This document shows, one piece after another, positions 57,464 to 60,111 of a DNA stretch of 64,000 bases. The notes under the pieces were generated by a model. The model searched no databases. It saw nothing but the letters and a program-made list of their open reading frames with translations, and was not told the DNA's origin. Every line of letters starts with the position of its first letter. Positions within the stretch are counted from its first letter, which is position 1. This stretch comes from Terriglobales bacterium. Its GTDB lineage: Bacteria > Acidobacteriota > Terriglobia > Terriglobales > Acidobacteriaceae. Location: assembly GCA_016185365.1 (NCBI GenBank), contig JACPNP010000018.1, forward strand, positions 43,848-107,847. The letters are read 5' to 3'. The translations under genes and the position numbers were made by a program.

Positions 57464-58303
57464 CTAGAGCCTGCGTCCCTGCTCGGTCAGGATCCTGGCT
57501 TCCCGGCGGACATCGGCCCATTTGATCGGCAGGTCGCGAATTTCGCCGGACTGCGTCGCATTTTGCAGCAGTTCGAGCATCGCGAACAGCACCCGGCGCT
57601 GGACCTCGAAGTGGAAAGGCGCGCCGAAGTGGTGTCCCATCGGCCACGGGACAAAGACCGCGCGCGGCGCCTTGATGGCGGCGGTGGAATCCTTGGCCAC
57701 GGTGACGGAGACCGTGGGCACGCCCCGGGCTTCGATCTCACGCTGGATCAGTCCCACGGACTGATGACAGATGGGTCAGGCCGGGGCCAGCAGGGCCACG
57801 TCCGCGCGCTGTTCTTCGACCACGGCGGCGGCGATGTCACGCGCCACGATGGCCTCGAAGCGCTCCGGATCCATGTTGTAGCCGATGAAGCTGAAAAATT
57901 CCGGCGTGAGCGCGCCAATGACGGCCTCCGCCGCCAGCTCCTGCAGACGTTCGATGGGGAAGATGACGTTGATGTCGAGATCGGCGTCGTCATGCGGATA
58001 CTTGAGCTGATGGATGATCAGGTCGCCATGCTTGGCTGTGGAGGGTACGCGACGAAAGGTGAAATCGCCGAATGGGTGCGCGACTTCCATGGGCGCATCA
58101 TTTTTCAGATGCACGCCGCACGAACTCACAAAGGTCACCCGGCATTCCGACAACGGCTTGCGCAAGGCCACCAGCGGAACGAAGTCAGGCTTGGTGATCA
58201 TGGACCCGGGGTAGCGGCTGTTGATGGTGTGCCACAGTCCGGGGCGGAGCTGCGTGCCCGCCTCGCGCGGATCGGGCCCCGGCAGGCTACCGGCTGCCGT
58301 CAT
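57464..58303 (-). CDS. GrdB-like selenoprotein (glycine/betaine/D-proline reductase B family), UGA = Sec
   Basis: The ORF track splits this gene at TGA 57776-57778. Read as one frame it gives 279 aa with Sec at residue 176: 'VALLAPA-U-PICHQSVGLIQ', a UxxC redox motif. Sequence on both sides looks like one family. N-terminal blocks are 'RYPGSMITKPDFVPLV' and 'VTFVSSCGVHLKNDAPME', then 'IGALTPEFFSFIGYN'. C-terminal blocks are 'EIEARGVPTVSVTVAKD' and 'VPWPMGHHFGAPF'. As I recall, relatives have Cys or Sec here. An 8-bp perfect stem-loop follows the UGA (separate entry). It starts at ATG 58303, overlapping the upstream gene by 17 bp. The substrate is unknown; the family name does not prove a glycine reductase. 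Confidence 0.85.
57743..57770 (-). promoter_or_regulatory. Candidate bacterial SECIS of the GrdB-like gene
   Basis: On the minus strand ATCAGTCC-GTG-GGACTGAT forms a perfect 8-bp stem with a 3-nt loop; a further CTG/CAG pairing extends it. The apical loop begins 19 nt after UGA (18 nt between). A G opens the loop. Position, stem length and loop G meet the published bSECIS rules as I know them (loop 16-37 nt downstream, G in the first two loop bases). Confidence 0.8.
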
Positions 58304-58532
58304 GGACCCATGCCCCGGATCTGCGGATGAGATGGAAATGCAGGCGGTAATAAAGCAGCGCCAGGGTGGAGTCGTCCGCCTTCAGCACCCGGTCGAGGAA
58401 TTCACGGTCCACGGGCTCATACCGCAACAGGACCCGGGTAGCCTCGATCCAGCTCTTCTCGATCTCTTTGCGGCCCACTTCTTCGTTGCCATCGCCCAGG
58501 TGCAGGCGCACGAACCGGATGACTTTTTCCAA
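58287..58532 (-). CDS. Small helical protein upstream of the GrdB-like selenoprotein, probably 5'-truncated
   Basis: An 81-aa ORF starting at TTG 58532. 'EKVIRFVRLHLGDGNEEVG' and 'ADDSTLALLYYRLHFHLIRR' are helical and look real. The frame is open a further nine codons upstream ('GLSAIPPE...') and then meets a TGA inside the REP palindrome at 58554-58573. The REP/RAYT element therefore seems to have replaced its 5' end. It overlaps the selenoprotein start. I do not recognise the family. Confidence 0.6.
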   Translation of the reverse strand: MEKVIRFVRLHLGDGNEEVGRKEIEKSWIEATRVLLRYEPVDREFLDRVLKADDSTLALLYYRLHFHLIRRSGAWVHDGSR

Positions 58533-58548
58533 CTCGGGCGGTATAGCA

Positions 58549-59215
58549 GATAGCCCCGCACGTCAGTGCGGGGTGTGCGGCGCATCAAAATGTGAGTCCG
58601 CTTCAGCGGACGCCATACCTACTCGAATCCATCCTCAGACATCGTCACCCCATTCAATCGCAATAATTCGCGCAATTCCTCCTCGAAGGTCCGTTTGTGA
58701 TGGTGCTCCTTCTGACCGGCGATATAGGCGATGGTCTTTGGAGCCACGGATTGACTCACGCTGAACGCCGCGTACTTCCCTGCCATTCGAACCCAGTCAC
58801 ATTGTGTTTCATCCAGCGGGACGAATTCGCCTTGATGACTTGTACGGCTTTGGCGACTGAAAGCGCGGGTGAGGTTTCGATCAGTAGGTGGCAGTGGTCT
58901 TCCATGCCACCGGCTTTCAACAATTGGAAATCATAGTTGCGGGCCACGCCGACCATGTAAGCCCAGAGCTCCGGTTGGATCTCTTCCCGGATCAGATGCC
59001 GCCTGCCTGACGTGGCGAAAATGATATGCGATTTCAAACTGGTGAAGGAGTGGGCCATAAGAGGATTCCCGCGCTGGATGGTACGGTGCGAGCGCCGAGT
59101 GTGCGCAAAAATCGTGATCTTGTTCTGTTTTCAGAACAATCATGGTATGTCGTCCGCTGAAGCGGACTCAGGGTCATTGAGAATGCGTGACCCCGCACTG
59201 ACGTGCGGGGCTATC
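58549..59215. mobile_element. RAYT/REP element: transposase flanked by inverted pairs of palindromes
   Basis: Left pair: CCCCGCACGTCAGTGCGGGG (58554-58573) and GTCCGCTTCAGCGGAC (58596-58611). Right pair: GTCCGCTGAAGCGGAC (59152-59167) and CCCCGCACTGACGTGCGGGG (59191-59210). The right pair is the reverse complement of the left, including the outer GATAG/CTATC. Between them lies one IS200-like (RAYT) transposase. A further REP fragment, GCTGACGTGCGGGG, occurs at 59247-59260. I see nothing else in 59216-59403. Confidence 0.88.
58619..59058 (-). pseudogene. IS200-like REP-associated tyrosine transposase (RAYT), frameshifted
   Basis: Y1 transposase of the HUH class. From ATG 59058: 'SFTSLKSHIIFATSGRRHLI' and the HxH metal motif in 'GGMEDHCHLLIETSP'. 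The frame is lost after 'WMKHNVTGFEWQG' near 58775 and stops at 58756. In the next frame the protein goes on 'KYAAFSVSQSVAPKTIAYI' (with the likely catalytic Tyr) and 'GQKEHHHKRTFEEELRELL', to TAG 58619. One missing G would restore it. It is flanked by inverted REP pairs. Confidence 0.88.
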
Positions 59216-59403
59216 CGGTATGTCGCCCTGCGGGCTCTGGTGGCCGCTGACGTGCGGGGGTTGGTCGGTCTCGCGCACTGAAGGCTGGAGCGGCTGCCGC
59301 ACTTGCTTGGCAGTCCAAGCGTTCTCATAGATGGGGGCACCGACGTGAGGAAATGTAGGCTACCTGCCAGCATTGGGACAAGAAATTGGCCATCAGCCAA
59401 CCT

Positions 59404-60111
59404 TCATCTTTGCTTTAACAATTGTTCAACGGCAGCACGAACTTCCCTTAGTGCCTGAGAAACCTGGTCGTGGTTGTAATTAAATTCACCACTGTGCGCC
59501 GCATCATTGCGCATGCGTGCAAGTGCCTCTAGGCGCTTTGCCTCAAATTCATTGAGTACCTGAGCCTCTTGTGACTTTAGTCTCGTTATCAACGGAGTCA
59601 GAGTATCCTTCGGTCCTATCTCTAAGCCGATTGCTTGAGCCCGGGTTTTAAGACTTTCTTCAAGCGCTGCGCCAATTAATACCGCTGCCGCCCGAATATA
59701 CCCTTTATTCGCGAGATATTCAGCTTCATCCAAAAGTCCGTCAAATACGGCAGCAGAAACAGAAAGGTGATATTCAACCGCCAATCCTAGCGAATACTCG
59801 ACTCTTGCAGATTTCAATACACCTAACGCCGCGCCTATATTGATTTCCTTCCCATCTCCACGTGTCGCCCAGCGTTCAAACTCGTTTACGAATCTATTGC
59901 TTGAAACTGAGAGCTTATCCAAGAGGTTTAGTACGCTCGTAACCCACTGGGCAAAGCTCGACGGATCCTTGATTGTGCCATCACCACCCGCTTTATAGCG
60001 TTCCCACTGCCGTTCGCCTTCCCCAATTAGATCGTCGAGTCGCTGCTGAATTAATGCGTTCCCTCTTAACATCTCTGAAACTCCATTCTGATCAGACTTG
60101 ATGTCTTCCAC
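59404..60111 (-). CDS. Low-G+C accessory protein, HEPN/DUF4145-like C-terminal domain
   Basis: A 235-aa protein whose base composition is clearly more A+T-rich than its neighbours. The N-terminal half is helical ('NALIQQRLDDLIGEGERQWER'). The C-terminal half ('GYIRAAAVLIGAALEESLKTRA', 'LARMRNDAAHSGEFNYNHDQV') matches the HEPN/DUF4145 pattern, where the RN...H motif can be an RNase or nucleotide-binding site. It sits between the RAYT element and the DedA-rhodanese gene and is probably acquired. HEPN proteins often act in phage defence or abortive systems; I see no partner here. Confidence 0.7.
   Translation of the reverse strand: MEDIKSDQNGVSEMLRGNALIQQRLDDLIGEGERQWERYKAGGDGTIKDPSSFAQWVTSVLNLLDKLSVSSNRFVNEFERWATRGDGKEINIGAALGVLKSARVEYSLGLAVEYHLSVSAAVFDGLLDEAEYLANKGYIRAAAVLIGAALEESLKTRAQAIGLEIGPKDTLTPLITRLKSQEAQVLNEFEAKRLEALARMRNDAAHSGEFNYNHDQVSQALREVRAAVEQLLKQR

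Follow-up and report, generated by a model that had tools for sequence, protein, structure and literature searches.

Mirror-image hairpin trios around TnpAY1 subclass 1.2-like transposase genes and their overlap with the Rfam family RF01687

Among the closest described systems is the REPtron, in which inverted hairpin units flank the Y1 gene for TnpAREP (RAYT, class 2) and are also found dispersed at extragenic sites where the gene is missing. RAYTs carry a WQ-type motif and a Y---NP signature, and their hairpins have a short tag, GT[AG]G, at the 5' foot. A classical REPIN consists of two REPs facing each other. TnpAY1 enzymes of subclass 1.2, with WQ and Y---Q--HH, have been described as low-copy transposases without REPs, mostly from Cyanobacteria and Bacteroidetes (Quentin et al, 2018, PMC6006769). 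IS200/IS605 elements (IS608, ISDra2; subclass 1.1) encode HUH/Y1 enzymes with W[TS] and are bounded by hairpins. TIRYTs, which are also known in Acidobacteria, are Y1 transposases whose genes lie between long terminal inverted repeats, some of which recur in the genome (TIRtrons; Di Nocera et al, 2013, PMC3733652); 20 of 26 TIRYTs belong to subclass 2.1 and have C-terminal HTH-like domains (PMC6006769). Finally, RF01687, the Acido-Lenti-1 RNA, has been in Rfam since 2010 as an sRNA with no function assigned. A comparative-genomics study judged it to be a probable RNA, probably not cis-regulatory, and names it in its main text only in a table (PMC2864571).

Here, we describe an element in a 64,000-nt stretch of acidobacterial DNA (the window) that shares features with each of these systems. 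We read it, with a probability of about 0.8, as a degenerate REPtron-like element, in which a subclass-1.2-type HUH/Y1 gene is boxed by mirror-image hairpin trios that are the likely ssDNA substrate of the enzyme. As in REPtrons, the Y1 gene is flanked by inverted hairpin units with a short tag at the hairpin foot, here mainly TAG, and similar units are found elsewhere without a gene. It differs from REPtrons in its transposase and in the unit itself, which has three hairpins at fixed spacing.

Hairpin layout and transposase gene of the window element

A preliminary description of the locus reported a RAYT gene framed by a REPIN-like pair of palindromes that recur on the other side as exact complements. 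For the two palindromes, exactness holds: Y, CCCCGCACGTCAGTGCGGGG, lies at 58554-58573 on the plus strand and again at 59191-59210 on the minus strand, and X, AGTCCGCTTCAGCGGAC, at 58595-58611 (plus) and 59152-59168 (minus). It does not extend to the whole inverted-repeat arms, which agree at 90% over the outer 39 nt and at 96% over the inner 27 nt. At up to three mismatches, 0.02 chance matches to Y are expected in 64 kb and 0.22 to X; the mirror recurrence is far above this level, and chance palindromes were rejected as an explanation. The spacer between the two palindromes is not alike on the left and right sides, so the hairpins themselves are the conserved part.

The frame is not a pair, as first proposed: each side consists of one ~90-nt unit of three hairpins, X-Y-X, and reaches past the region originally delimited. 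Read from the outside inwards, a unit comprises X (~5-bp stem, mostly a three-base loop), 10-14 nt ending in TAG, and Y, which has a stem of ~8 bp and usually 3-4 nt in its loop; after ~20-25 nt of free sequence, a second X follows. TAG is conserved at the foot of Y, and the left and right units are mirror images when both are read inwards.

The right unit is complete (59146-59235, minus strand; covariance model R1, C54:102993-103082, 71.8 bits, E 4.6e-13). It contains the inner X (59152-59168), Y with its TAG foot (59191-59213) and the outer X, GCCCGCAGGGC (59225-59235), an additional hairpin that closes the box at 59235. When folded as ssDNA, this unit forms the three hairpins and one small spacer hairpin (z -3.6). 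In the left unit (58529-58617, plus strand; R1, C54:102376-102464, 71.1 bits, E 6.7e-13), the outer X is an eroded remnant at about 58531-58546; it is followed by Y (58551-58573, including TAG at 58551-58553, with an 8-bp stem and a GTCA loop) and the inner X (58595-58611). Both inner X hairpins were delimited by inverted-repeat and palindrome matches, both Y hairpins by sequence, palindrome match and DNA folding, and the right outer X by sequence and DNA folding.

A further palindrome that had escaped the preliminary description, Z, TTGTTCTGTTTTCAGAACAA (59120-59139, no strand assigned), lies between the inner X and the start codon and is shared with the paralogs L004 and L005. On this upstream side, the palindrome before the start codon reads TTGTTCTGnnnnCAGAACAA or a close variant in the window copy, L004 and L005. 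Z also occurs solo with a GATTTTTG-like tail (L035:1501-1539 and L042:1501-1533), with no adjoining transposase in the stretch read; such solo copies could possibly be a promoter or regulatory repeat. The neighbouring genes in the window, for a GRDB-like protein (PF07355) and a DUF4145 protein at 57776-58303 and 59404-60111 (both on the minus strand), have no evident tie to the element.

The gene between the units is a tnpA pseudogene of the Y1 (HUH) type that resembles subclass 1.2 (58619-59058, minus strand; PF01797, E 2e-20; alignment to the intact paralog L003). One base is missing at about 58779 relative to intact paralogs, of which L003 is open throughout, which bears out the loss already noted. 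The assignment to the RAYTs, by contrast, had to be abandoned. Enzymes of the window kind carry HUH, WQ and Y---Q--HH (YIANQKEHH-like) motifs, whereas the Y---NP of RAYTs is absent. In an alignment of 30 sequences, W92, Y112, Q116, H119 and H120 are invariant and Q93 nearly so, and all seven paralogs aligned have the three motifs in common. Against a cut-off of 80, the RAYT profile REP_Tyr_transpos gave 23-32 bits or no match for six paralogs from the same genome. The NCBIfam IS200/IS605 transposase profile is passed by four of six such paralogs and just missed by two; with the IS200 transposase cut-off set at 55 bits, L001, L003, L004, L005 and L046 score above it and L006, L007 and L094 slightly below. 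The best structural matches of an AlphaFold model (pLDDT 90) are the TnpA proteins of ISDra2 and IS608 in their DNA-bound form; the RAYT structure 4er8 ranks lower (E 4e-6).

Judged by motifs and length rather than with the original authors' HMM, the enzyme is a member of TnpAY1 subclass 1.2, with which it shares WQ, the YI.NQKEHH signature, diverged paralogs and size (143-155 aa, about 147 aa, in the source genome; about 148 aa in the published subclass). A TIRYT within a TIRtron was considered and rejected: that family is defined by a C-terminal HTH-like domain and a GGGGWSAS consensus in its terminal repeats, whereas the enzyme here has ~147 aa and Y---Q--HH, and the repeats are hairpin trios.

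With a frameshift in the gene and erosion of the outer hairpin on the left, the window copy is probably dead in cis and does not offer the clear view of the substrate once attributed to it; intact paralogs and gene-less units elsewhere in the genome are clearer.

Paralogs and gene-less units in the source genome

A PF01797 profile search of the genome found 16 genes or fragments, nine of the window kind and seven of class 2. The other eight window-kind genes have open frames and X-Y-X boxes, with the qualification that the paralogs on contigs C32 and C33 run off contig ends, leaving one side visible, and that the start of L009 is uncertain. No unit boxes any of the seven class-2 tnpA genes. 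The window-kind paralogs are mostly diverged, at about 40% identity; their X and Y stems differ between most paralogs and match on both sides of each one. X reads CGTC on one strand, and CGTC-tagged REPs have no known transposase (PMC3733652), but here these bases lie inside the stem and are not kept in all paralogs.

The palindromes are anything but private to the window; the lack of further genomic copies that would have refuted the preliminary description is decisively contradicted. The genome holds 86 X-Y-X units (E <= 0.01) according to a covariance model built from 25 of its units, so that TAG is partly built into the counts of this model. Of these, 25 lie within 300 nt of a subclass-1.2 gene and 61 more than 300 nt away, which lends good support to the earlier proposal of a transposase framed by a REP-like substrate with gene-less copies elsewhere. 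The units are mostly extragenic: 4 of 31 fall in ORFs of at least 150 aa, although such ORFs make up 83% of the bases. Their stems covary strongly, with two-sided changes in 73 cells compared to 24 in shuffles.

Contigs C33, C32 and C9 each carry an element that is 96-98% identical to the other two; the homology stops at the outer X to within a base, and the flanks are unrelated. Each of these contigs breaks off within its element, which is what recent repeated copies would cause, since an assembler cannot join them. These near-identical elements at unrelated sites are the best sign that the whole box may have moved recently. Among the solo units looked at, none was a MITE with both ends joined; each corresponds to one end.

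These observations bear on the possibility that the element is an ordinary insertion sequence of the IS200/IS605 family that has left MITE-like remnants, in which case its subterminal hairpins would account for the hairpins seen here. The NCBIfam assignment of several paralogs, the ISDra2 and IS608 TnpA proteins as closest solved structures, and the three near-identical whole copies would fit such an origin, and the fold, HUH/Y1 catalysis and hairpin-bounded element are indeed shared. However, known members of that family have no terminal inverted repeats (PMC2817692) and differ between their left and right ends, whereas the element here has long mirror-image ends and WQ in place of W[TS], and its solo units represent one end rather than both ends joined. 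Furthermore, the paralogs are ~40% identical, compared to 99% among subclass 1.1 IS copies (PMC6006769). We therefore regard an ordinary insertion sequence as unlikely.

Some units and their flanks carry additional repeats. In seven units, the loop of Y is interrupted at one and the same position by a foreign hairpin, CCTGCCCTGAGCGAAGYCGAAGGG (C9:17884; C34:180638 and 181165; C32:18191; C3:19526, 21975 and 22120; loci L020, L039, L212, L220 and L233). Most other genomic copies of CCTGCCCTGAGCGAAGYCGAAGGG that were seen form the tip of a REP with a GTGG tag, similar to repeats next to the class-2 tnpA L016. REP families appear to recombine in hairpin loops. Several solo units (L149, L152, L157 and L039) have up to ~90 nt of left flank in common; this stretch includes TTTTCACCACAGAGGCACGGAGG or similar and is an intergenic repeat in its own right, which stops at the unit boundary. 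In the right flanks of L167, L224, L212, L131 and L157, the unit is followed by AATTTTCAAAGAAC or a close variant, which is perhaps part of a longer unit type.

RF01687 and hairpin units across phyla

A hairpin-geometry scan that is blind to sequence was run on the flanks of subclass-1.2 genes from many phyla. With 79 flanks examined on each side, X-Y-X was found upstream in 22, downstream in 20 and on both sides in 15; the rate in shuffled flanks is 0.06%. Loci with units come from Acidobacteria, Planctomycetes, Verrucomicrobia, Lentisphaerae, Chlamydiales, Flavobacteriales and Segatella, among others. Because a third hairpin is found across phyla at similar spacings, a model of paired hairpins as in a REPIN was rejected. 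Of 36 units from other genomes, 21 have TAG at the Y foot, compared to a background of 4%; the geometry scan takes no account of TAG, and this is the only TAG count free of the training bias of the covariance model. In contrast to the four-base tag of RAYT hairpins, the base before TAG is free (ATAG, TTAG, GTAG and CTAG all occur), and several units without TAG read AAG or CAG. In other phyla as well, the stems covary (235 two-sided changes compared to 55 when shuffled). The subclass thus departs from its published description in having REP-like units, in reaching nine genes in the source genome, and in its occurrence in Acidobacteria, Planctomycetes, Verrucomicrobia, Lentisphaerae, Chlamydiae and others.

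Comparison with Rfam showed that RF01687 is the outer X-Y half of the X-Y-X unit, read on the opposite strand. Its model typically covers the first 46 positions of the unit, outer X plus Y, and the inner X lies outside it. In the window, RF01687 matches Y and the outer X of the right unit (59191-59236, plus strand, opposite to the unit; 31.1 bits, E 5.8e-5) and, more weakly, Y and the eroded outer X on the left (58543-58573, minus strand; 26.8 bits, E 8.1e-4), both below the 37-bit gathering score. All 42 matches above that score in the source genome overlap X-Y-X units, and match and unit run on opposite strands in 67 of 68 overlapping cases. Mostly below the cut-off, RF01687 also marks boxes at loci from Chlamydiales, Verrucomicrobia, Lentisphaera, Gelidibacter, Segatella and Planctomycetes.

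Across 119 genomes of the phylum, RF01687 and the transposase occur together in 22, the enzyme alone in 5, RF01687 alone in 7 and neither in 85 (p = 2e-13; p = 1e-12 outside the family of the window genome). Other authors built the RF01687 model, using different sequences, which makes this test independent of our own model. In the literature covered, mostly outside subscription journals, the papers on RF01687 that were read do not link it to a transposase.

It could be argued that the unit is instead a transcribed structured RNA, the Acido-Lenti-1 sRNA or an attenuator/terminator, that is merely spread by the transposase. The entry of its outer half in Rfam as an sRNA and the intergenic position of the units speak for an RNA. 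Yet the Rfam call comes from comparative genomics and reads 'probably' (PMC2864571), RF01687 spans only half of the conserved unit, DNA hairpin stems would covary equally well, and RF01687 copies track the transposase across the phylum. We consider a transcribed RNA quite improbable. Since half of each trio is RF01687, mobile DNA is the more probable identity of the Acido-Lenti-1 'RNA'. We also lean, somewhat less firmly than towards our main reading, to the view that it represents half of the ssDNA substrate of an undescribed, widespread class of subclass-1.2 REPtrons, in which TAG and WQ would be the counterparts of the GTAG foot and WQ motif of RAYTs.

Distribution among relatives and a proposed mechanism

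Of 35 subclass-1.2 loci from the source genome and its relatives, 25 have mirrored units on both sides and five on one side; at one further locus the left unit is not mirrored, and four are without units. Among 61 relatives, units are present in 24 of 26 genomes with the enzyme and in 10 of 35 without it (p = 4e-7; p = 0.005 within the family alone). Many of the genomes are fragmented. Because related genomes cannot be counted as independent samples, the p-values given here and for RF01687 overstate certainty. The ten relatives with units and no detected enzyme count against our reading, as do the 5 of 119 phylum genomes with the enzyme and no RF01687 match and the four loci without units; the ten suggest that units persist without the enzyme or that another enzyme can serve them. 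In one such genome (G004), 99% complete, we found 47 X-Y-X units and no subclass-1.2 transposase; the units there may have outlived their enzyme, or another enzyme may serve them.

Gene-less units, and genomes with units but no detectable gene, might also be expected if the units were an independent repeat family into which the transposase gene inserts, much as ISPpu9 uses REPs as its targets, but insertion predicts one split unit or flanks in the same direction, whereas 25 of 26 two-sided genes are mirrored and left and right stems match paralog by paralog, which makes such a scenario very hard to sustain.

Genomes of one genus hold between 0 and 87 units, and a given orthologous site may carry an intact unit, a degraded one or none. 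At two loci compared in a 24-genome genus, one species has the unit, some show a degraded form and others lack it. As a further point against our reading, a clean empty site with an exact junction was not recovered at either locus, and the target site is unreadable because intergenic junctions are too diverged between species. Mobilisation of the units by the associated transposase would fit this presence/absence pattern and the co-occurrence of units and enzyme.

Returning to the REPtron-like reading, we propose the following mechanism. The enzyme would recognise the trio as folded ssDNA, on the lagging-strand template or during repair, and would read the TAG foot of the central hairpin Y. 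Its catalytic tyrosine would then cut near the ends of the trio, and either the trio alone, giving gene-less units, or the whole box would be copied or moved, presumably also in trans. A solo unit would thus be the minimal substrate, and a boxed gene would be two substrates around their enzyme. HUH/Y1 enzymes choose ssDNA cut sites by guide bases at the hairpin foot, a rule that is established with IS608 and has been tested on one RAYT (PMC8266576), and Q95 is among the GTAG contacts of E. coli TnpAREP (PMC6006769, PMC8266576). By analogy, TAG would act as the guide, and the WQ motif may help to read it.

A REPtron-like system with its own transposase subclass is the best reading of these data, and its mobility is the part that we infer. 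A subclass listed as lacking REPs thereby gains a candidate substrate, in phyla where REPs have been little studied. The eight further open-looking subclass-1.2 genes, most with their own stems, make the co-evolution of enzyme and hairpin testable in a single host. The orphan family RF01687 gains a concrete explanation. Acido-Lenti-1 RNAs have been suggested to regulate protease genes in Tannerella (PMC13298647); if our reading is true, 'Acido-Lenti-1 ncRNA' annotations beside genes, such as those, could mark mobile DNA rather than regulators.
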